IMG/VR virus record: IMGVR_UViG_3300002231_000705
Location: 1-21,197 of that record
Strand: one strand, 5' to 3'
Source: a virus
DNA length: 21,197 nt
Shown here piece by piece: positions 1,814 to 18,200 of this stretch. Position 1 is the stretch's first letter, and each line of letters opens with the position of its first letter. The position numbers and the translations under genes were made by a program. Below the pieces are notes generated by a model. That model saw only the letters and a program-made list of their open reading frames with translations, had not been told where the DNA came from and ran no database searches.

Positions 1814-2884
1814 CTAAAGCTCATACTCCACACCATTACCAAAACTAGAACCAACTTCAACATCGACTGCTAGAGGAACCCTCAAGTTGATGTTGAAGTT
1901 TTCTTTTAGGTAGTGATAGTTTACCAACTCGTCAGAAACAATCTTGATAACTTCCTCAGTCTCCTCCTTCGGACTGATCAACTCAATGGAGTCATGCACA
2001 GTTGCGACAACCTTAGCCTTGTAGGGCTTGAGCTTATTGATAACTCCCAACATACCACACAAAAGGATGTCGCTAGCCGAAGATTGAATAGTAAAGTTCA
2101 GACCTTGTCGGAAAGCCTCTCTCCTAACCCTCTTAAAAGGAGAAGTAATGTTAGGTAGGTGACGGAACCTTCCGAAGATAGTCTTGGCAAACTTATGCTG
2201 CTTGATGTAATCATCAGTCATCTCCATATAACGTCCCACTCCAGGAAAAGCAGCCAACCAACTATTGATGATCTCTTCCGCTCTCTCCTCAGGGATGTTA
2301 CGCTTTGATGCAAGGGTAAATGCAGTCCCTCCATACACCGTCAAGAAGCTAACTTCCTTAGCAATCTGCCTCTCCAGCTTCGATACCTTAGATGGATCCT
2401 TCTTAAAAGTAAGGCCAGCAGAGTAGCTGTGAAGGTCTACACCGGACTTGAAAGCATGAATCATGTTCTGCTCATTAGCCACATGTGCAAGAACACGGAG
2501 TTCCATAGCCTTCATATCAATCGTAATAAAATCATGCCCAGGTGGGGCAACCACATAATCACGAATATTTACAGAAAGGCTCTCACGGGGCAACGTATGG
2601 AACGACACACCTATCCTATCACTAGCCTTACGACCAATTCTAGCTCCAGAGTTAGAGAGTCTTCCTGTAACTGTGCCGTCAATCCTGTAACTCACATACA
2701 TCCTACCGTTACCAGTGTTCTCTAGCGCACGGGAAGCACCTTGGATATACACAGAGTGTAGCTTGTTAAGTTTCTTATACTCAGAGAACTTATCTACAAA
2801 CCTCTTAACCTCTAACAACTCCTCATTAGACTTAGAGGCCAGAACAGCTTTAGCGATACTTACTTCTTCGTTACGGTTATTCAC
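1814..2884 (-). CDS. Family A DNA polymerase, palm/fingers (catalytic) subunit
   Basis: This 356-residue protein is the catalytic part of a Pol I-type replicative polymerase. Visible motifs are TGRLS near residue 73, motif A IDMKAMELR with catalytic Asp123, and motif B RQIAKEVSFLTVYG with Arg172, Lys176, Phe180 and Tyr184. QSSASD lies at 267-272, and motif C VHDS has catalytic Asp298. Phe180 sits at the E. coli Pol I 762 position. Motif C has Ser where most family members have Glu (HDE). The N-terminal 60 residues correspond to the end of the thumb, so the protein is not a complete polymerase alone. The GTG start overlaps the upstream gene's stop (GTGAATAA) and has AGAGGG seven bases before it. 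A stop in its own frame lies directly before the GTG, so the start is firmly bracketed. It probably works in a complex with the next two proteins. Confidence 0.93.
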   Translation of the reverse strand: MNNRNEEVSIAKAVLASKSNEELLEVKRFVDKFSEYKKLNKLHSVYIQGASRALENTGNGRMYVSYRIDGTVTGRLSNSGARIGRKASDRIGVSFHTLPRESLSVNIRDYVVAPPGHDFITIDMKAMELRVLAHVANEQNMIHAFKSGVDLHSYSAGLTFKKDPSKVSKLERQIAKEVSFLTVYGGTAFTLASKRNIPEERAEEIINSWLAAFPGVGRYMEMTDDYIKQHKFAKTIFGRFRHLPNITSPFKRVRREAFRQGLNFTIQSSASDILLCGMLGVINKLKPYKAKVVATVHDSIELISPKEETEEVIKIVSDELVNYHYLKENFNINLRVPLAVDVEVGSSFGNGVEYEL

Positions 2885-3404
2885 TCAGCAACCCTCTAGA
2901 CATACACTCTTCGTCGATCATGGATTTAAGTTTCACAATGGTCTCTTCGCTGGTGGAAGGAGAGCCCTTCTTAGTGAACTCAAAAGGATACAGCCCAAAG
3001 CCGATGTTGTCAACTACTTCCCACTCTGCATCCGTAGATTCTCTGGCTAGAGAGTAGAGGATCTTGATCAAGTCCTTTGTTGAGCGTAGGTTATACGTAT
3101 CATCAATCTTTGCAGATTCCGCTAGCTCCTTGTGGGCTTTTCCAATCTTATCTAATAGCTCCTTACCTAACTCCCCCATCTTATCTGTATCAATAAGGAG
3201 ACCTTCGTATTCGATGTCCCTAAAAGCTACGGTGAGAGGAGAGATAAGTTTCTCGTAAAGTTTTTCTAGCTTCTTCTCCCGCAATGCATTTAAAAGAGTT
3301 AGGTAGACCTTTGCAGTTGCATACGTATCCTTCGCATTACCATCAGCACAATCAATTAAAGGGATATTCTTCCAGTCAAAGTTTTTGCCTTCTACAGTGA
3401 GCAT
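2877..3404 (-). CDS. Family A DNA polymerase, middle subunit (Exo III motif and thumb)
   Basis: This 175-residue protein carries the piece of a Pol I-type enzyme between exonuclease motif II and the palm. NAKDTYATAKVYL (residues 23-35) matches the Exo III region, with Asp26 as the likely metal ligand. The usual Tyr four residues before it is Gly22. The rest (EGLLIDTDKM, then NLRSTKDLIKILYSLA) follows the thumb-domain pattern in which the template-binding region precedes the palm. The ATG at 3404 lies one base after the upstream stop (TAATATG) with AAGGA ahead of it. The frame is open further upstream to 3500, but that part merely overlaps the upstream gene in another frame. A single protein continuous with its neighbours is the norm in this family. 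The split could also reflect a frameshift, although the coupled start sites argue for separate genes. Confidence 0.85.
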   Translation of the reverse strand: MLTVEGKNFDWKNIPLIDCADGNAKDTYATAKVYLTLLNALREKKLEKLYEKLISPLTVAFRDIEYEGLLIDTDKMGELGKELLDKIGKAHKELAESAKIDDTYNLRSTKDLIKILYSLARESTDAEWEVVDNIGFGLYPFEFTKKGSPSTSEETIVKLKSMIDEECMSRGLLSE

Positions 3405-3405
3405 A

Positions 3406-4446
3406 TTAGAATTCTTCCTTGGGAATGTAGTAGTAAACCAGATCAGCCAATCCCTTAGGGACCTCCTCATTATACAGATGTTGCAGGAGCTTTGTATCAA
3501 AAATATTATTTACTTCCTCAACACCATACCTTTTGAGGAATTTCAGATCATAGTTCGCTCCTTGAAGGATCTTACGATTCTTCTTGTTAGCCATTACCTT
3601 AACTATAAAATCCAAGAACGCACCTTTAATCTTATAGCCTAGCTTTGCTTCCTTGTGGTCAATAGGCAACACAATTGTCTCTAGGATTTCGTTGGTATCC
3701 GAATCCAGCCTCGTAAGAGAAATAGTATGGATTGTATCAGATAGAAAGTTCAATCCAGTGGCTTCAATATCCACGGCAATATCCTTCGTGGTATCAATGA
3801 ACTTATCTTTCACCTTGTCCAACTCCTCGATGGACATCACTAGATTGTAGGGAACCTCAACCGCAGTGGACCTATGTAAAAGTTCGCTATTGATAGCGTT
3901 TTCAATATCCTTCCTAAAGAGGTAGGCATTCTTTGGTTCGGACACTACCTGGAATGGGTGAATGATTGGTACAAATCTGAACTCGTGGCCCTTCTCAGTC
4001 TTCATAGAGTCAGCCTTACCCCGAACCTTGGAATGCATCTTTACCTTCCCGTAAACCATTGTAGACGCCACCTGACCACATGCAAAGATCAACTTAGGCT
4101 TAAGCTGATCAATGGTATCATGGAGATGCGCCTGACAGGTCTTCCTAATGGCAGGCGTAAGGGTATCCATAGTAATGCCTGGGCACTTTACAGATGTGCT
4201 AAATGCAACCTTCCAATCATTCAGATTGATGTCTAGTGCAACTAGAGCTTTTGTGATCGCTACATATTCTTGAGAGCGAAATGCAACATACTCCCCCTCA
4301 TGTAACTTTGGATGATCAGAAAGAAAAAGGATGTCGCACTCTTCCTGATACTCATAATCCAGGATGGTATGGGTTGGGAGAGGCTTATCTAAAACTGGAC
4401 AACCGTTACACTTAGGGTTGGCTTCGCGAAAATCTAGTTGAGGCAT
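3406..4446 (-). CDS. UDG-like (4Fe-4S) domain fused to DnaQ-type 3'-5' exonuclease, N-terminal polymerase subunit
   Basis: Numbered from the ATG at 4446 (346 residues). The first 190 residues resemble family 4/5 uracil-DNA glycosylases: a CxxC pair (Cys13, Cys16) plus Cys88 and Cys104 with the spacing of the Fe-S ligands, KLIFACGQVAST, and a late HP motif (His163-Pro164). The usual catalytic GE-x-PG segment is replaced by LSDHPKLHEGE, so glycosylase activity is uncertain. Residues from about 215 on form a DnaQ-like proofreading exonuclease: Exo I DIEATGL (Asp226, Glu228) and Exo II GANYDLKFL (Asp300). Exo III lies in the next gene. UDG-exonuclease-polymerase chains occur in phage Pol I enzymes (SPO1 type, from memory). 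A TTG at 4470 would add eight residues, but the ATG is preferred because it has a TATGAT box six bases upstream and leaves room for the divergent sigma gene. Confidence 0.85.
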   Translation of the reverse strand: MPQLDFREANPKCNGCPVLDKPLPTHTILDYEYQEECDILFLSDHPKLHEGEYVAFRSQEYVAITKALVALDINLNDWKVAFSTSVKCPGITMDTLTPAIRKTCQAHLHDTIDQLKPKLIFACGQVASTMVYGKVKMHSKVRGKADSMKTEKGHEFRFVPIIHPFQVVSEPKNAYLFRKDIENAINSELLHRSTAVEVPYNLVMSIEELDKVKDKFIDTTKDIAVDIEATGLNFLSDTIHTISLTRLDSDTNEILETIVLPIDHKEAKLGYKIKGAFLDFIVKVMANKKNRKILQGANYDLKFLKRYGVEEVNNIFDTKLLQHLYNEEVPKGLADLVYYYIPKEEF

Positions 4447-4463: not shown

Positions 4464-4643
4464 GTGACAAACTACATAAACAACAAAAGATTCGAGGAAC
4501 TCATACAAGCCTACCGATCAGGAAATAGAGAGCATGAAGAAGAACTTTTCCGCATGTTCGATCTCTTGATTAATAGGCTGATGGTTTCGTTCAAATTTAA
4601 TGTTGATCATGAGGAAGCTAAACAGGAGTGTTTACCTTCTTAA
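4464..4643 (+). CDS. 55: gp55-like late sigma factor, N-terminal part (frame-broken)
   Basis: Begins with GTG at 4464 and runs 59 residues to TAA. VTNYINNKRFEELIQAYR matches the start of T4 gp55 (NYVNNKELLQAI as recalled). The later MVSFKFNVDHEEAKQEC matches the gp55 segment before the promoter-binding region. gp55 is the phage sigma subunit that directs host RNA polymerase to TATAAATA late promoters. The frame stops within CLPS, while the continuation of the gp55 match lies in the -1 frame beginning about 4622-4628. One extra T in the TTT run at 4631-4633 would join the two parts. Either a sequencing or real deletion, a translational frameshift, or a gene split could explain this. The only usable in-frame start is the GTG; it has no Shine-Dalgarno site. 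Confidence 0.65.
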   Translation: MTNYINNKRFEELIQAYRSGNREHEEELFRMFDLLINRLMVSFKFNVDHEEAKQECLPS

Positions 4644-4831
4644 TACTAAAAGTCCTGAATAACTTCAAGAGAGGATCGGGACAAGCCTTCAATTATTTTA
4701 CGACAGTAATTCTAAATAATCTCAGGCTCATCTATTCCAAAAACAAAAGATACAACGACAGGCTAGCTGCCTATATTTCGCACAAAACTGGAAACTATAT
4801 CCCCAGTTCAGCGCCAACCGAGCCGTTGTAA
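4628..4831 (+). CDS. 55: gp55-like late sigma factor, C-terminal part (frame-broken)
   Basis: The 67-residue frame has GTG at 4628, with GAGGAAG at 4611-4617 as a possible ribosome site. It contains FKRGSGQAFNYFTTVILNNL followed by RLIYSKNKRYNDRLAAYI. This is the characteristic sigma region 2-like segment of gp55 homologues, which binds RNA polymerase and the -10-type late promoter element. It overlaps the N-terminal fragment by 16 bases in the -1 frame. It also overlaps the end of the convergent minus-strand gene by 37 bases. Together the parts give about 125 residues, shorter than T4 gp55 (about 185), with the missing length at the C-terminus. If translated separately it could form a two-chain sigma; if not, the gene is a pseudogene or contains a sequencing error. 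Confidence 0.65.
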   Translation: MFTFLILKVLNNFKRGSGQAFNYFTTVILNNLRLIYSKNKRYNDRLAAYISHKTGNYIPSSAPTEPL

Positions 4832-5455: not shown

Positions 5456-5983
5456 ATGGGTGATGATTTTGATATAAGTCTTCTAAGAAAGAAAAAGAAG
5501 GTAAACTCTAGAGCTAAAGGTAACCGATTTGAAAACAAGATAGCTAAGTCTTTGAATGAAAGATTTAATACTAAGGAGTTCTGTAGAACTCCAGGCTCAG
5601 GAGCATTTGCAACAACACATAAATTACCTGAATACTTAAAGATCTATGGAGACTTAATAACACCAAAAGACTTTAAATACATTATTGAATGCAAGAAAGG
5701 ATATAACGAAGAACAAATAAGTGATTTACTCAATCCAAAATCAAATATTTCAAATATGATAGCGCAAGCCTCAAGAGATTCAAGAAAATGTTCTAAACAT
5801 TTTTTCTTGATTATTGGTCAGGATAGAAGAGATCCAGTGGCTATAACCAACGATCTAACCCTTCCTATAGAGGGGAACAAGTTCTTTGGAAGATCGGGTG
5901 ACACTGATGTAGTAATTGTAAGTTTAAAAGAATTACTACTAATAGGAGACTTCCATTTTTTCGAGGAGGGTTCCCATCCTTGA
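5456..5983 (+). CDS. PD-(D/E)XK nuclease, Holliday-junction-resolvase-like
   Basis: This 175-residue protein has the core of the archaeal Hjc / PD-(D/E)XK family in the usual order. SRAKGNRFENKIAKSL has Glu26 in the first helix, and FCRTPGSGAF has the conserved Arg and Gly-Ser-Gly. KIYGDLI has Asp66, and YIIECKKGY has Glu78 and Lys80. These would bind Mg2+ and cut DNA, most likely branched recombination or replication intermediates before packaging. The role of T4 endonuclease VII would be comparable, but the fold is different. The ATG is preceded by a very strong GGAGGAAGG. The last 45 bases overlap the convergent 851-residue gene. A trimming or restriction-like nuclease role is an alternative. 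Confidence 0.75.
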   Translation: MGDDFDISLLRKKKKVNSRAKGNRFENKIAKSLNERFNTKEFCRTPGSGAFATTHKLPEYLKIYGDLITPKDFKYIIECKKGYNEEQISDLLNPKSNISNMIAQASRDSRKCSKHFFLIIGQDRRDPVAITNDLTLPIEGNKFFGRSGDTDVVIVSLKELLLIGDFHFFEEGSHP

Positions 5984-12260: not shown

Positions 12261-12802
12261 AACTTACCTCCAACATCATCCACCCTATCAAATCTATCTT
12301 CATTATAAATATCCTCGGTATCGCGAAGAAGTTTAGCGTGAACTAATAGGTGATAAACCCCATAGGCTTCAAAGCTATCCTCCTGGACTTCGTAAACCTC
12401 AAACTTCATTTCCTGAAATTCTGGTCGAAGAACGTCACCAATTTTAATTGTCCTACCTAAGGTGTCTTCGGTATAAGATTTATTAAATACAAATACTTGA
12501 TCTATTTGCATCTCCACACCAAACTGAGAAAGGTTTTCTTCTATAGGTCTGGGGTCGTAGTGAGCCCATAGGGTAATCGGCTCAGAAGCTATTGCTTTTT
12601 GTCTAGACTCCTGATAAACGTCATCTATATCCTCACTCTTAACATACTCAAATACCTGGACCTTGGACCCAGAAAGCTTGATGTTTTCTGCATCTATCTT
12701 ATTGAACAAGTTCTTATCATTTTTCTTATTAAATAATGATAAGCGAGTGTTCCTAACTTCAGGAAAGTTAGTAGGAGGAGTATTTACTTTAAATCTGGAC
12801 AT
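12257..12802 (-). CDS. 14: Neck protein, gp14-like
   Basis: 181 residues, shorter than T4 gp14 (256). KKNDKNLFNKIDAENIK resembles the gp14 beginning. The later block FGVEMQIDQVFVFN, then IGDVLRPEF, then EVYEVQEDSFEAYGVYHLLV has the gp14 layout: a strand pair, a 'GD-hydrophobic-P' turn, a Phe-Glu strand and a final strand pair. gp14 sits between gp13 at the portal and gp15 at the tail, closing the head and forming the connection. The gene starts inside the upstream stop (TAATG), and its own stop overlaps the gp15-like start (ATGA), so all three are tightly coupled. Assignment relies mainly on synteny plus the fold pattern. Confidence 0.72.
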   Translation of the reverse strand: MSRFKVNTPPTNFPEVRNTRLSLFNKKNDKNLFNKIDAENIKLSGSKVQVFEYVKSEDIDDVYQESRQKAIASEPITLWAHYDPRPIEENLSQFGVEMQIDQVFVFNKSYTEDTLGRTIKIGDVLRPEFQEMKFEVYEVQEDSFEAYGVYHLLVHAKLLRDTEDIYNEDRFDRVDDVGGKL

Positions 12803-15800
12803 TATGTTATATCAAATAGCGGTGGTCCTTCGATACCACTTACTAGCTCCTCTAAAAGTTTTTCTTTCTCTAAGGCAGCTTCTCTGATTAGGGAATCCCC
12901 ATTCAGTTTCGTCCCTCCTCCTGGTCCCGGTAGGGTTTGGTATTTATTTCTAATCCCACCCAAGATCTCCTTAGCTAGGCACAAAGAAAATCTCTCCACC
13001 CAATTCTTATAAGCATGGTGAATAGTTTTCGGGTCAAATGCTCTAAACTCCAACAATACCGTTTCTGTATTGTTTTCAGGAACCGGCCACACATGTAGAT
13101 ATCTATTCCCAATCAACTGCCATGTAGACATCTGCCCTAGAACATTCTTTACTTGCTTTAGGTATTGCTGCATTAACAGGTATTGGCTTACATTGTAATT
13201 ATTGAACAGCCCAGTGTTGGTGAAGAACATAATGGCAAAATCATATTCTAGTGAACCAGGGCTCGCCCCAAACTTAAAGAAGTCTCGTTTGTACCAAACA
13301 TCATTTAGGTTATCAGCCACCGCAGCGGGAAGATCGTATACATTGATACCTCCTGAGGTTTGGAAAGTAGCATACTGAGTCATCCAGTCGGGGGCATGAT
13401 ACTCAAGACGAGAAATCGCTTCATCTATACAAGTTTCAATTTGGAAATCTTCAAGCTCCACATCAACAACGGGATACCCAAGCCTAGAAAGAATATAATC
13501 TTTAATAGTTCGTTGGAAATCCTTGAACTCTACAGTGCCCTTAGCGTCTTTATTATTAAGATCGTCTGGTCTTGGGGTATCATAATCCTTAAGCTTATTA
13601 CCCCCGTATTTACCGTAAGAGGAACCGTAAGACCTTACTATGGGGGTTCCAATTTTATTAGATGTTAGCACCTCTGCCTCAGATTCTGATACTATGCCTC
13701 GGGTAGGAGGACCAGGATCAGGGAAAGGACTATCATTTCGCAAAATCATCTTGTAGGCATTAGTCGTCAGAAATGGAAGATCATTCTGATCGTAAAAAAC
13801 AGCCTGTATCCCATACCCATTAGTCGAGAAAGGACCCCCATAAGGTTCGGGAGGCATTGCCATCCTATGGATAATTGTTCCATACCTAGACGCCTTAGTT
13901 AAAGTATCATCCATATAAGATTGTTGGGCTGGAGCAGGAGTTTGATCAACATAAATATACTGTCCATTACCTAAAGCCGAAGGAGTTGATAATATTTCTC
14001 CTCCAAGAATCTTACAAGTAGTATTAGGTGGACACTGGAATATCTCCCAAGTTACTTTATTAGTCCCTCCCTCCCCATTAAAAGTGGCATCTTCATTGGT
14101 TGCCAAATAAGGGCCACTAAAATCTGCCATCCCTATAACCTTTTCAAAGCCCTGGGAATATAGGCTATTAGATGTCTGATAGTCTAGTAACTCATTAGAT
14201 ATTCTATATTTTCTGTAGTAATAAGCAATATAGTTCCTATCATCACCACTGACTAAGCCACTGATTCCGTAGGAATTAATAGTAACTGAACTTCCTGGGA
14301 ACATGCTTGGGGTGTCCGACTCGTAATCATTGATCCACCTCGCATTGGGGAGGTGATTAAAACCAGCGGTCGTAGCATCTGTATAAAAAGGTCGAGTCCA
14401 ACCATAAGTATTTTGGGTAGTCCATCCTAGAAGCGGCAAACTCCACTTCGGCCCCAACCCCAAAGCCTGCATAAATAGGGCTTGACCCATGGAGCTTTGG
14501 TTCCTAAAAGTCCACCCATACTTAAGGAAATGGTCCCCATAGTTACCACCTACTGTCCTCCACTGGGAAAGATTGGGATCATCTTTAGAATACTTATACA
14601 TATCTGCCGAAGCAGGACCTAAATAGGGCGCATTCCCAGGCCGGAAAGTCCCAATGGGGAGTCTTCCTGGGGTATTGCTCTTCCCAGGATACCAAGGGGA
14701 AATCCCACTAAGCCCTGGCCCCAATTCAGATGCATATTCCGTATCCCACTTACCTCCAGAAGGGTGTAACTGTTGGAACCCTACACAGGCTGAGAGACCA
14801 TAAGAGGAAGTTGCAGTATGGTTATCCCCCCAATACCACCCATTGAACAAAGCTGAAGGAGTAATCACATCTATGGGCCTACCAACCCCATATCGGGGAT
14901 CCCAAGGGTTGCTAAAATGTCCTTGCCCGGAACAGAAAGTATGGGCTTCCCCAAATCTCCCTAAGCCTATATCGTGCTTTGGATCGTCGTATCTTGTGGG
15001 GCCGAGATACCTATCAGGATCCTTCATCTCTTCATTGTTTAGAAGAACACCCGCAGCCATAATCATAGCTTTTTTAGCTTGGAAATGACCTCCATTAGAT
15101 TTCTGATCTCTTCCATCCTTCCATGCACTCCAATAATCAATACCAGCCTGGGTTAAAGCTTTTAAAGTTTTAGTACGAAGTTCTTGCTCACTCTCAGGAA
15201 CAATCATTAACGATTTAAGAAGAACTAAGTTAATTAACTCTCCCCACCCTTGACCATACCCAGGTTGGTGGAATCCTGCATGAATAGCCTCGGAACCCCA
15301 CTTTTGGTTATCATCCCCAAAATAGTATCTAATAGCATTATATAGATCTTCCCAATAAGGCTTAACTACAGGAGAAGGAGTGTTAACCGACCCAAATATT
15401 TTAGCGTAATACCCACTAAAAGTGTTCCCACCACCGGGCTGCTCTTCTGTGAGAAACTGAGGTATTCTTGAGGCATCAAACTCAGACATATAAAATTGTA
15501 TTTTATTATTAATCCTTCCTTGATGCCAATAGGCTCCTGGTCTAAAAGTTAGGGTCTCCTCTAACCCCCCTCTCCCATGTGTTTCAGTGTCCAAAGGGGG
15601 AATTCTATCAAGGAAGGTTAAGGGCATCTTACAAGAAATAACTGTCCTAACCCTATCCTTAGATAACGCATAACTAAACAAAGCAGCTGTACCCACTCCA
15701 CCTAAACCATCAACCGAGCTAGGGATACCAGAGGCCATAACTACCATATCATGGGGGACACAACTCAGAGGTAGTGATTGGTTATAGGACGCAACATAGG

Positions 15801-16107
15801 GTATCCTCGCATTCGCTCTCTCGTCGTAGCCCTGAACTGCCGCATGTCCTGGCACATTCATCATAATCCCATTAACATCTTTGTAGCCATTAAATCCAAA
15901 TTCTCCATTGAAAAGCCAAGATTCTTGGGGAGGGGTAGTAGAGACTATCGCAGCCGAGAAAAACGGATCATGTGTAGTAGGGGCAATCCAAGGACTTCCA
16001 TCAATATATTGGCCGGAAGTCATCGCATAGGTGGAAGACACAGTAGCAGTAATTCCGCTAACATCAGTGATACTTGGATAAAAACAACCAACAGTGATTT
16101 GAGCCAT
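12802..16107 (-). CDS. 13: gp13-like neck protein with large N-terminal toroid (polysaccharide-lyase-like) extension
   Basis: 1101 residues. Residues 820-1101 are a complete gp13 neck domain (TIKDYILSRLGYPVVDVELE; later LAKEILGGIRNKYQTLPGPG and LIREAALEKEKLLEEL), matching T4 gp13 over its length. Residues 1-220 form a Gly/Pro/aromatic-rich beta region. Residues 240-460 contain helical hairpins with GQGWGELINLVLLKSLMIVP, a central NGGH (338-341) and IMAAGVLLNNEEM. This pattern resembles alpha/alpha-toroid polysaccharide lyases and related glycan enzymes, but no family is assigned with certainty. Residues 460-800 are rich in Trp, Tyr and Gly, as in glycan-binding or beta-sandwich modules. There is no signal peptide. 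The ATG overlaps the stop of the paralogous upstream gene (TAATG). Expected location: the phage neck, with the extension pointing outward. Confidence 0.85.
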   Translation of the reverse strand: MAQITVGCFYPSITDVSGITATVSSTYAMTSGQYIDGSPWIAPTTHDPFFSAAIVSTTPPQESWLFNGEFGFNGYKDVNGIMMNVPGHAAVQGYDERANARIPYVASYNQSLPLSCVPHDMVVMASGIPSSVDGLGGVGTAALFSYALSKDRVRTVISCKMPLTFLDRIPPLDTETHGRGGLEETLTFRPGAYWHQGRINNKIQFYMSEFDASRIPQFLTEEQPGGGNTFSGYYAKIFGSVNTPSPVVKPYWEDLYNAIRYYFGDDNQKWGSEAIHAGFHQPGYGQGWGELINLVLLKSLMIVPESEQELRTKTLKALTQAGIDYWSAWKDGRDQKSNGGHFQAKKAMIMAAGVLLNNEEMKDPDRYLGPTRYDDPKHDIGLGRFGEAHTFCSGQGHFSNPWDPRYGVGRPIDVITPSALFNGWYWGDNHTATSSYGLSACVGFQQLHPSGGKWDTEYASELGPGLSGISPWYPGKSNTPGRLPIGTFRPGNAPYLGPASADMYKYSKDDPNLSQWRTVGGNYGDHFLKYGWTFRNQSSMGQALFMQALGLGPKWSLPLLGWTTQNTYGWTRPFYTDATTAGFNHLPNARWINDYESDTPSMFPGSSVTINSYGISGLVSGDDRNYIAYYYRKYRISNELLDYQTSNSLYSQGFEKVIGMADFSGPYLATNEDATFNGEGGTNKVTWEIFQCPPNTTCKILGGEILSTPSALGNGQYIYVDQTPAPAQQSYMDDTLTKASRYGTIIHRMAMPPEPYGGPFSTNGYGIQAVFYDQNDLPFLTTNAYKMILRNDSPFPDPGPPTRGIVSESEAEVLTSNKIGTPIVRSYGSSYGKYGGNKLKDYDTPRPDDLNNKDAKGTVEFKDFQRTIKDYILSRLGYPVVDVELEDFQIETCIDEAISRLEYHAPDWMTQYATFQTSGGINVYDLPAAVADNLNDVWYKRDFFKFGASPGSLEYDFAIMFFTNTGLFNNYNVSQYLLMQQYLKQVKNVLGQMSTWQLIGNRYLHVWPVPENNTETVLLEFRAFDPKTIHHAYKNWVERFSLCLAKEILGGIRNKYQTLPGPGGGTKLNGDSLIREAALEKEKLLEELVSGIEGPPLFDIT
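12805..13657 (-). repeat. gp13 domain, copy A of a tandem gene-level duplication
   Basis: About 283 codons roughly 80% identical in protein to copy B at 16110-16961, counted by eye. In a sampled 110-base stretch about 16 bases differ, all silent and mostly G or C here against A or T in copy B. Both copies start at KIG-(T/I)-P and end with LFDI(T/L) followed by the same TAATG junction. Confidence 0.9.
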
Positions 16108-18134
16108 TATAATATATCAAACAAAGGTGCCTCTTCTATTTCAGTTAGAAGTTCCTCTATAAGCCTTTCTTTTTCTTGTGTTGCTTCTTGAATTAAAGCC
16201 TCTCCATTTAAGGAGGTTCCGCCACCGGGACCTGGAAGGGTTTGATATTTGCTTCTAATCCCACCCAGAATCTCCTTTGCTATACATAGAGAATATCTCT
16301 GTATCCAGCTTTTATAAGCATGGTGAATGGTCTTTGGGTCAAAAGCTTTAAATTCCAAAAGTACACTTTCTTTGCTGGATTCGGGAATAGGGAATATATG
16401 TAAGTATTTATTATTTACTAATTGCCATGTAGACATTTGACCTAAAACATTCTTTACTTGCTTTAAGTATTGTTGCATCAATAAATACTGGCTTACATTA
16501 TAATTATTAAAAAGACCAGTATTAGTAAAGAACATAATAGCAAAGTCATATTCTAATGACCCTGGTGAAGCCCCAAACTTAAAGAAATCTCGTTTGTACC
16601 AGACATCTGTTAAATTATCTGCTACAACTTGAGGAATCTCGTAAACATTAATGCCGCCTGTTACCTCAAAAGTAGCATACTGAGTCATCCAGTCAGGAGC
16701 ATGATACTCAAGACGGGAGATCGCTTCATCTATACAGACATTTAATTGAAAATCTTCAAGCTCTACATCGACAACTGGGTAGCCTAACTTCGCTAATACA
16801 TAATCTTTTACTGTCCTGTCAAAGTCCCTAAATTCTACGGTATCCTTGGCATCCTTGTTATTAAGGTCATCTGGACGAGGAGTCTTATAGTCCCCTAACC
16901 TGTTGCCTTTATAAATCCCATAAGATGATCCGTAGGATTTAACCGTAGGTATACCTATTTTGCCCGCAGTAGTTCCTTCAGTAGCAGCAAAAGTAGCACC
17001 CGGAGCAGTACCAGTCATGTTGGATTCAGAGGTTGTAGCAGTCTGGCTTTGTAATGTAGGGGAGGGTAAAGGAAGGCTCGACAAAGGATAGATAATATTC
17101 GAAATAGCAGCACCCAAATTAAAAGCACCAGACAAGTCGTAGTGTACCTTATCCTCTGCTACTGAATATACTGCGTTTGGAGTGCCTCCCGCACTTGTAA
17201 AATAATTCCATACTGTTTCTGTCCCTGTGGTGGGAAGGAAATACGTATCAGTTTTTCCTAACAAATTTAAATCAATAGACGCATTGTAGGTACTAGTCCG
17301 AATGGTATTAAACCTTTCTTCTTCCCCTACCCTAGTCCCATGGTCATACTGATCGTGAGTACCCACTAGAACAGTTGTTGGTCGGGTTCTCCTATAATCA
17401 AAATTATTTAAGGTGCATCCAAACTCTTCTAAAACATCATAAATATTTGTTACAAAATCAACAAGAAGACCCCTATAAGCTCTAGACCCATAAGGGGCTA
17501 TCGCGTCTAAAGTCCCCATAACAACATACATGCCATCAACGACTACAGTATTTGTACCTGCTGCCGATAAATCAGCAACTGCCGCTGATAACTGATTAAA
17601 TAATCCGTATTTCGCATTCGGAGATGGGATAGTAAGAAAATTAGAATCTTTAGTCAGAGGCCAAAGGCTGGCGTAGTCTATCCCCCCAGCGTTGGGGTTA
17701 CCAAAAAAGTCTAGAGTGTTATCCCATTTTAAAAGACTAGTTTGATACTTCGATCCTTTAAAAAGATGCACATCTACACCAGAGGGTAACGACGCTGAGA
17801 CCTCGCCCGCAACCGGAATAGTTCCTGGCGATAGCTTTTTTACTCTCCTCCCCCAATACCCTGAAGCTAGCCACCTTAAGGGAAACTCAGGCCCCACGAC
17901 CGCACTTTCCCAGTGGGTATTTGCACTGAAAATATTATAGTTCTCCCATTCCTGCTGTCCTGGTTCGTAATTCCAAATCTTAAGTTGTGTTTGTTCTGCG
18001 AGATGGGCAGAAAGGTTTATAGTCGCGATATCAGGAATCCCAGGGTGAGGAACGGTAGCAGACAAAGAAGAGGCAGCAACGGCACCCGCACAATTAGAAT
18101 CCCCTATACCAATAACTAGCCTCTTCTCAGCCAT
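16107..18134 (-). CDS. 13: gp13-like neck protein with N-terminal SGNH esterase domain
   Basis: 675 residues from the ATG at 18134, with AGAAAGG upstream. An earlier in-frame ATG at 18170 is rejected because it lies in the terminator hairpin. Residues 1-350 have the SGNH hydrolase blocks: GIGDSNCAGA (nucleophile Ser13), LFKGSKYQTSLLKW (block II-like), YVVMGTLDA (block III-like) and EDKVHYD (catalytic Asp328 and His331). This layout resembles sialate/acetylxylan O-acetylesterases, which remove acetyl groups from sugars. A Ser/Thr-rich linker at about 355-392 leads to a full gp13 neck domain (393-675). This would anchor the esterase at the head-tail junction. The substrate is unknown; acetylated host surface polysaccharide is the obvious guess. 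Confidence 0.85.
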   Translation of the reverse strand: MAEKRLVIGIGDSNCAGAVAASSLSATVPHPGIPDIATINLSAHLAEQTQLKIWNYEPGQQEWENYNIFSANTHWESAVVGPEFPLRWLASGYWGRRVKKLSPGTIPVAGEVSASLPSGVDVHLFKGSKYQTSLLKWDNTLDFFGNPNAGGIDYASLWPLTKDSNFLTIPSPNAKYGLFNQLSAAVADLSAAGTNTVVVDGMYVVMGTLDAIAPYGSRAYRGLLVDFVTNIYDVLEEFGCTLNNFDYRRTRPTTVLVGTHDQYDHGTRVGEEERFNTIRTSTYNASIDLNLLGKTDTYFLPTTGTETVWNYFTSAGGTPNAVYSVAEDKVHYDLSGAFNLGAAISNIIYPLSSLPLPSPTLQSQTATTSESNMTGTAPGATFAATEGTTAGKIGIPTVKSYGSSYGIYKGNRLGDYKTPRPDDLNNKDAKDTVEFRDFDRTVKDYVLAKLGYPVVDVELEDFQLNVCIDEAISRLEYHAPDWMTQYATFEVTGGINVYEIPQVVADNLTDVWYKRDFFKFGASPGSLEYDFAIMFFTNTGLFNNYNVSQYLLMQQYLKQVKNVLGQMSTWQLVNNKYLHIFPIPESSKESVLLEFKAFDPKTIHHAYKSWIQRYSLCIAKEILGGIRSKYQTLPGPGGGTSLNGEALIQEATQEKERLIEELLTEIEEAPLFDIL
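16110..16961 (-). repeat. gp13 domain, copy B of a tandem gene-level duplication
   Basis: Paralogous to 12805-13657. The central block, from DVWYKRDFF to QMSTWQL (62 residues), is identical in protein between the copies while its codons differ at many silent positions. The N-terminal extensions of the two genes are unrelated. Confidence 0.9.
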
Positions 18135-18151
18135 AAAATACCTTTCTAAAG

Positions 18152-18157
18152 TATTTA
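18152..18157 (-). promoter_or_regulatory. TAAATA late-promoter-like box before the first neck gene
   Basis: GGTAAATA on the minus strand lies between the upstream terminator and the Shine-Dalgarno site, 17 bases before the ATG at 18134. It matches six of eight positions of the T4 late consensus. Transcription from it would start close to the AGAAAGG site, giving a very short leader. Confidence 0.3.
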
Positions 18158-18165
18158 CCCTTAAA

Positions 18166-18200
18166 CACAAAAAGGGTTCGGATTATAATCCGAACCCTTT
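18166..18200 (-). terminator. Terminator after the capsid gene: perfect 30-base palindrome
   Basis: 18171-18200 is a perfect 30-base palindrome (AAAGGGTTCGGAT, a central TATA, and its complement). On the minus strand it is followed by a T-run (TTTTTGTG). It lies 23 bases after the capsid stop codon and would end the scaffold-capsid transcript, separating capsid from neck expression. The plus strand has no gene here that would use it in the other direction. Confidence 0.85.

Follow-up and report, generated by a model that had tools for sequence, protein, structure and literature searches.

The family A DNA polymerase encoded on this viral contig appears to be the replicative enzyme in a lineage of T4-like phages, divided permanently among three genes and acting as an obligate heterotrimer; from comparative sequence evidence, we place the probability of this reading at about 0.84. 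Family A polymerases usually carry exonuclease, thumb, palm and fingers on one polypeptide, although this layout does not strictly define them. On the minus strand of the window (the whole 21,197-nucleotide stretch of IMG/VR record IMGVR_UViG_3300002231_000705 analyzed here), the open reading frames instead distribute a UDG–exonuclease–polymerase over three consecutive genes, and the pieces occupied separate genes in 107/107 distinct three-piece loci.

An initial annotation, made from the letters of the window, had proposed a polymerase divided over three consecutive genes at 1814-4446, and three open frames do lie there. Subunit 1 (3406-4446, minus strand, 346 aa) comprises a UDG-like Fe-S domain and a 3'-5' exonuclease with the motifs Exo I (D226, E228) and Exo II (D300), lacking Exo III. 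Subunit 2 (2877-3404, minus strand, 175 aa) supplies the Exo III helix, in which D26 corresponds to D501 of E. coli Pol I, together with most of the thumb. Subunit 3 (1814-2884, minus strand, 356 aa, GTG start) contains the end of the thumb, the palm and the fingers, with motifs A (D123), B (R172/K176/F180/Y184) and C (D298). The earlier assignment of the thumb to the second gene thus holds for most of that domain, but its last part belongs to the third. Pfam models UDG and DNA_pol_A_exo1 scored over the cut-off in subunit 1, and DNA_pol_A (PF00476) matched subunit 3 with 239 bits (cut-off 34.3); a Pfam search with subunit 2 returned no match. Taken in order, the three pieces tile both the PHROG phage polymerase family phrog_17 (profile positions 477-786, 795-921 and 925-1237) and E. 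coli Pol I (residues 329-454, 482-617 and 626-919 for subunits 1, 2 and 3).

The first break separates Exo II from Exo III and lies immediately ahead of the Exo III helix; the second is inside the thumb, between E. coli Pol I residues ~617 and ~626. Across this second break, ~69 residues lie between the PST and KLxxTY motifs, of which subunit 2 contributes its last 26 and subunit 3 its first 43, as compared to roughly 30 read off the E. coli Pol I sequence, and the extra residues may be docking tails. The structural model of subunit 1 (pLDDT 85) matched the folds of family 4 UDG/UdgX (1l9g, 1ui0, UdgX) and of the PolA exonuclease. Its final 20 residues were modeled with low confidence in the lone chain (pLDDT 57-65), which fits an absent partner but proves nothing. 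Subunit 2 was modeled as all-helical (pLDDT 85), with family A polymerases as its only credible fold matches, and the best sequence matches of the palm/fingers piece were to the Bst, Taq and Klenow structures.

We searched IMG/VR with each piece and then with alignments, counting a locus if all three pieces were present. Each of the 79 distinct loci recovered in this way, and of the 107 after another search, had its pieces in three separate open frames, far more often than chance would produce. Identity to the window ranged from 84% down to ~44% in the polymerase piece and reached down to ~35% in the other two. The initial annotation had pointed to related phages as the place to look for the same breaks, or for an uninterrupted gene: all 107 distinct loci carried the breaks, and no fused member of the clade was found, so that this check did not refute the split. 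The fused relatives that were recovered are other phage and cellular polymerases, with ~30% identity or less. No cultured relative was found in the phage collection searched, where the best record was ~31% identical. In a tree of the polymerase, 51 three-piece representatives formed one group (SH-aLRT 99) on a long stem, apart from 23 fused polymerases, several of which sit on very long branches. The three-piece state maps to one change on this tree, and since its members form one clade, the sequences point to both breaks having arisen once, although the long fused branches call for caution.

The lineage appears to be widespread, uncultivated, mostly marine and T4-like, and is known from metagenomic contigs. 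A T4-like Gp23 capsid gene was present in the window and in 12/12 long three-piece contigs (60-131 kb), and the closest cultured capsids, at ~33%, were those of Synechococcus T4-like phages. The sole hint of a host comes from one relative, whose 130-kb contig belongs to a single-cell assembly of Prochlorococcus. Of the twelve long contigs, nine (68-131 kb) contained exactly one DNA_pol_A match each and no match to DNA_pol_B or DNA_pol3_alpha; a second polymerase of family A, B or C in these phages was rejected, as none was found in these nine. Elsewhere in the window, two adjacent minus-strand genes (12802-16107 and 16107-18170) share a nearly identical C-terminal stretch of ~250 residues while their N-terminal parts are unrelated; the latter gene begins with a GDSN motif resembling that of SGNH hydrolases. 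A PDDEXK_15 phage endonuclease gene lies at 5456-5983 on the plus strand, opposite to the replication genes.

A DEDDy 3'-5' exonuclease uses four catalytic carboxylates and a tyrosine four residues ahead of the last Asp. All four carboxylates are present in the three-piece enzyme, supplied by two genes: D226, E228 and D300 were invariant in subunit 1 (alignment of 64) and D26 in subunit 2 (alignment of 67). In the alignment of subunit 3, D123, R172, K176, F180 and Y184 were likewise invariant, and D298 was retained in at least 90% of sequences. The invariance of the carboxylates across two genes supports the earlier proposal that the first break divides exonuclease motifs which would have to complement each other. 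The tyrosine is missing, its position (E. coli Y497) being occupied by Gly22 of subunit 2 in 67/67 sequences, whereas several fused phage relatives retain it. Because glycine replaces the Exo III tyrosine, proofreading may be weakened. In the UDG-like domain, the Fe-S cysteines C13, C16, C88 and C104, as expected of family 4 UDG/UdgX, were invariant (alignment of 64), and the catalytic motif GExPG was missing, with SDHPK or similar in its place in the five three-piece members examined. With the cysteines kept and the glycosylase motif altered, the sequence suggests a role in uracil sensing or in structure rather than ordinary excision.

These substitutions are also what might be expected if the polymerase consisted of subunits 2 and 3 only and the UDG–exonuclease piece worked independently, for example in repair or nucleotide salvage, with no proofreading in trans. 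Both the glycine in Exo III and the Fe-S UDG-like domain with its altered active-site motif would suit such an arrangement, as would the greater frequency of extra DNA at junction 1 (28 of the 107 loci) than at junction 2 (6 loci). An independent subunit 1 is harder to square with the invariance of D26 in subunit 2 alongside that of the Exo I and Exo II carboxylates in subunit 1. The distances of subunits 1 and 2 also correlate (r = 0.95), though linkage alone would yield much of this value. We consider an independent subunit 1 unlikely, and favor the heterotrimer.

The junctions themselves bear on how three products would be made. In the window, junction 1 (3402-3408, minus strand) reads TAATATG, that is, the stop TAA, one base and the start ATG, with a Shine-Dalgarno-like AAGGA for subunit 2 at 3416-3420 (minus strand, duplex energy -5.4 kcal/mol). 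Junction 2 (2877-2884, minus strand) reads GTGAATAA, where the start (GTG) and the stop (TAA) overlap by 8 nt, with a Shine-Dalgarno-like AGAGGG for subunit 3 at 2892-2897 (minus strand, -6.3 kcal/mol) that is strong across the clade. Both junctions and their ribosome-binding motifs are where the initial annotation had put them, the third frame begins exactly with this GTG, and TAATATG recurs, as it had noted, at the scaffold-capsid junction of the window. The typical form of junction 1 is a different one, however, with TAATG (a 1-nt stop/start overlap) in 58/79 loci as against TAATATG in the window.

Across the 107 loci, the third gene starts with GTG in 50, ATG in 39 and TTG in 18, a tally somewhat biased because we took whichever start codon lay closest to the expected position; the frames and the inserts carry more weight. 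Shine-Dalgarno pairing ahead of the third gene had a median of -6.0 kcal/mol, versus -1.5 kcal/mol at internal codons (p ~3e-28). For the second gene it was moderate (p ~3e-6 against internal codons at junction 1), and it was missing in loci with a junction 1 insert, which makes equal synthesis of the subunits uncertain there. The suggestion that these are real translation-coupled starts is upheld by many relatives as regards the boundaries and the starts, but coupling does not extend to the whole clade, since more than a quarter of the loci have an intervening gene or other DNA at junction 1.

Extra DNA at junction 1 measured 118 to 2403 bases, and counting both junctions, genes (some on the opposite strand) or other DNA separated the pieces in 31/107 loci. 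Changes of insertion state on the tree numbered at least 14 at junction 1 and at least four at junction 2. One locus, L018, carries an HNH endonuclease gene exactly in junction 1, the only HNH insert; the others are unrelated genes, including a glycosyltransferase (L179), 2OG-Fe(II) oxygenase-like and DUF6445 genes (L108), a nucleotide-kinase-like gene (L235, L237, L238), small membrane proteins and several opposite-strand genes. In loci with an opposite-strand junction 1 insert, we observed a TA-rich motif (TAATATATAG, TATTATATAG or near) 2-3 bases ahead of the second-gene ATG (L103, L107, L110, L111, L113, L114, L119, L179, L180, L182, L243, L246, L319, L343, L349, L353 and L360), perhaps the promoter of the opposite-strand gene. 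In L319, which has 1565 bases in junction 1, the middle piece is itself in two frames, representing another break or an error.

Since unrelated genes or DNA separate the pieces, a single fused product is impossible in the insert-bearing loci. This bears directly on the possibility that programmed frameshifting, or bypass of the stop codons, joins the frames at each junction into one full-length polymerase, their separation being only apparent. In the tight loci the frames do overlap by a few bases, like some frameshift sites. Among the 79 loci, however, the frame relations fell into classes of 61/9/9 at junction 1 and 57/18/4 at junction 2, and the window's own junction 1 frame is unlike that of its kin. 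Such variation between relatives is incompatible with one conserved frameshift. The start codons also keep their Shine-Dalgarno pairing, and the inserts refute frameshifting outright where they occur, so that we find it very improbable overall. An intron-interrupted polymerase was rejected as well: there was no Rfam intron match in the window, L018, L108, L111, L237 or L184, and most junction 1 sequences are direct stop-start overlaps, with the pieces too tight to hold an intein.

Sequencing or assembly error in one intact gene has a superficial appeal in that the window contig contains another apparent frame break. A sigma-factor-like gene (Sigma70_r2, weak) at 4464-4831 on the plus strand lies in two frames, broken at ~4620-4640, whereas it is uninterrupted in 101/102 related loci with a match; this suggests either an error or a mutation private to the window. 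Given this break in the same contig, the TAATATG of the window could be private, but not the split itself, as independent contigs with 44-84% polymerase-piece identity all carry the same breaks. These comparisons confirm that the split is real and not a sequencing artifact, and leave error a negligible explanation. Equally negligible is decay of the genes, with replication left to the host or to another polymerase, for which we found no supporting point: all three pieces are under strong purifying selection judging by dN/dS near 0.03 (medians 0.036, 0.033 and 0.023 for subunits 1, 2 and 3 in moderately diverged pairs), their catalytic residues are invariant, and no other polymerase family matched in the nine long contigs.

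In the heterotrimer that we propose, ribosomes at the tight junctions would terminate and re-initiate with Shine-Dalgarno help, such that the pieces are made together. Subunit 2 would have two partners: its docking on subunit 1 would place the Exo III aspartate beside the Exo I and Exo II carboxylates, and its docking on subunit 3 would make up the full thumb, which holds the primer-template. As to origin, two insertions, probably of homing endonucleases or similar free-standing genes, may have interrupted a single ancestral UDG-PolA gene ahead of the radiation of the clade. Most inserts would since have been lost and the breaks retained, with junction 1 remaining a repeated landing site for genes. 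We infer the homing-endonuclease origin from one HNH insert in 28 and from precedent. More tentatively, and at somewhat below even odds, the lineage may combine a proofreading site assembled in trans within a fixed three-subunit replicative PolA, the capacity for exonuclease-bearing and exonuclease-free polymerases to coexist in an infected cell according to the supply of subunit 1, and a junction 1 that serves as a landing site for passenger genes.

If the heterotrimer reading is right, the polymerase would have to be put together anew from its pieces in each infected cell, and this three-piece enzyme is what an entire lineage of uncultivated, largely marine T4-like phages appears to depend on. 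The enzyme represents a natural split polymerase ready for testing how enzymes survive fragmentation. It could also show whether subunit supply tunes proofreading, and offers a system for studying how mobile-gene insertions turn single proteins into complexes. Automatic annotation will label these genes as fragments or errors.

Two-piece phage polymerases are known from a handful of isolates, where they count as curiosities, and split phage genes are as a kind already familiar. A lineage-wide, three-piece family A enzyme with its breaks in the exonuclease site and the thumb was not found described, in what was a limited test: the literature searched, with most subscription papers outside its reach, held no description of a three-gene or split PolA. 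The nearest fused relatives, with homologous UDG-PolA enzymes of ~30% identity or less, are those of Lysinibacillus phage LysYB1, Streptomyces phage Zuko and L192; unlike the three-piece members, such fused relatives have one gene and retain the Exo III tyrosine. SPO1-type UDG-PolA genes (e.g., Bacillus phage Goe26, L273) share the UDG-exo-PolA order and have an HNH endonuclease gene at an interruption. That interruption, however, sits within the pol domain, around profile position 126, and involves an I-HmuI-like intron-type endonuclease, whereas the window and the five three-piece relatives scanned gave no Rfam intron match. The initial annotation had drawn a parallel with Rhodothermus phage RM378, which is T4-like and does have its exonuclease (p024) and polymerase (p092) in separate genes. 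Both of these are family B, ~57 kb apart and cut between whole domains, so the parallel stands as an analogy only and RM378 was rejected as an instance of the same split; over its first 50 kb, the RM378 genome showed no relative of the window polymerase genes.

Closer precedents come from other T4-like systems. In phage Aeh1, nrdA is split by the HNH endonuclease gene mobE and the enzyme is fully functional (PMC2988022). As in L018, an HNH gene is lodged in the gene of an essential enzyme, and the Aeh1 pieces reassemble into a working enzyme, as we propose for the polymerase studied here; unlike that polymerase, the Aeh1 enzyme is a ribonucleotide reductase with one break and the endonuclease still present. 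The passage on split polymerases in the same source describes gene 43 of Aeromonas phages 25 and 44RR as a family B polymerase in two pieces, 43A and 43B, and the pieces from phage 25 as co-purifying with polymerase activity (PMC2988022, citing Petrov, 2010). These phages thus also divide a replicative polymerase between genes, and the gene 43 break contains a homing endonuclease or an untranslated insert. Their division, however, is of a family B enzyme into two pieces in a few T4 relatives, whereas the one described here is of a family A enzyme into three, fixed across a deep clade.
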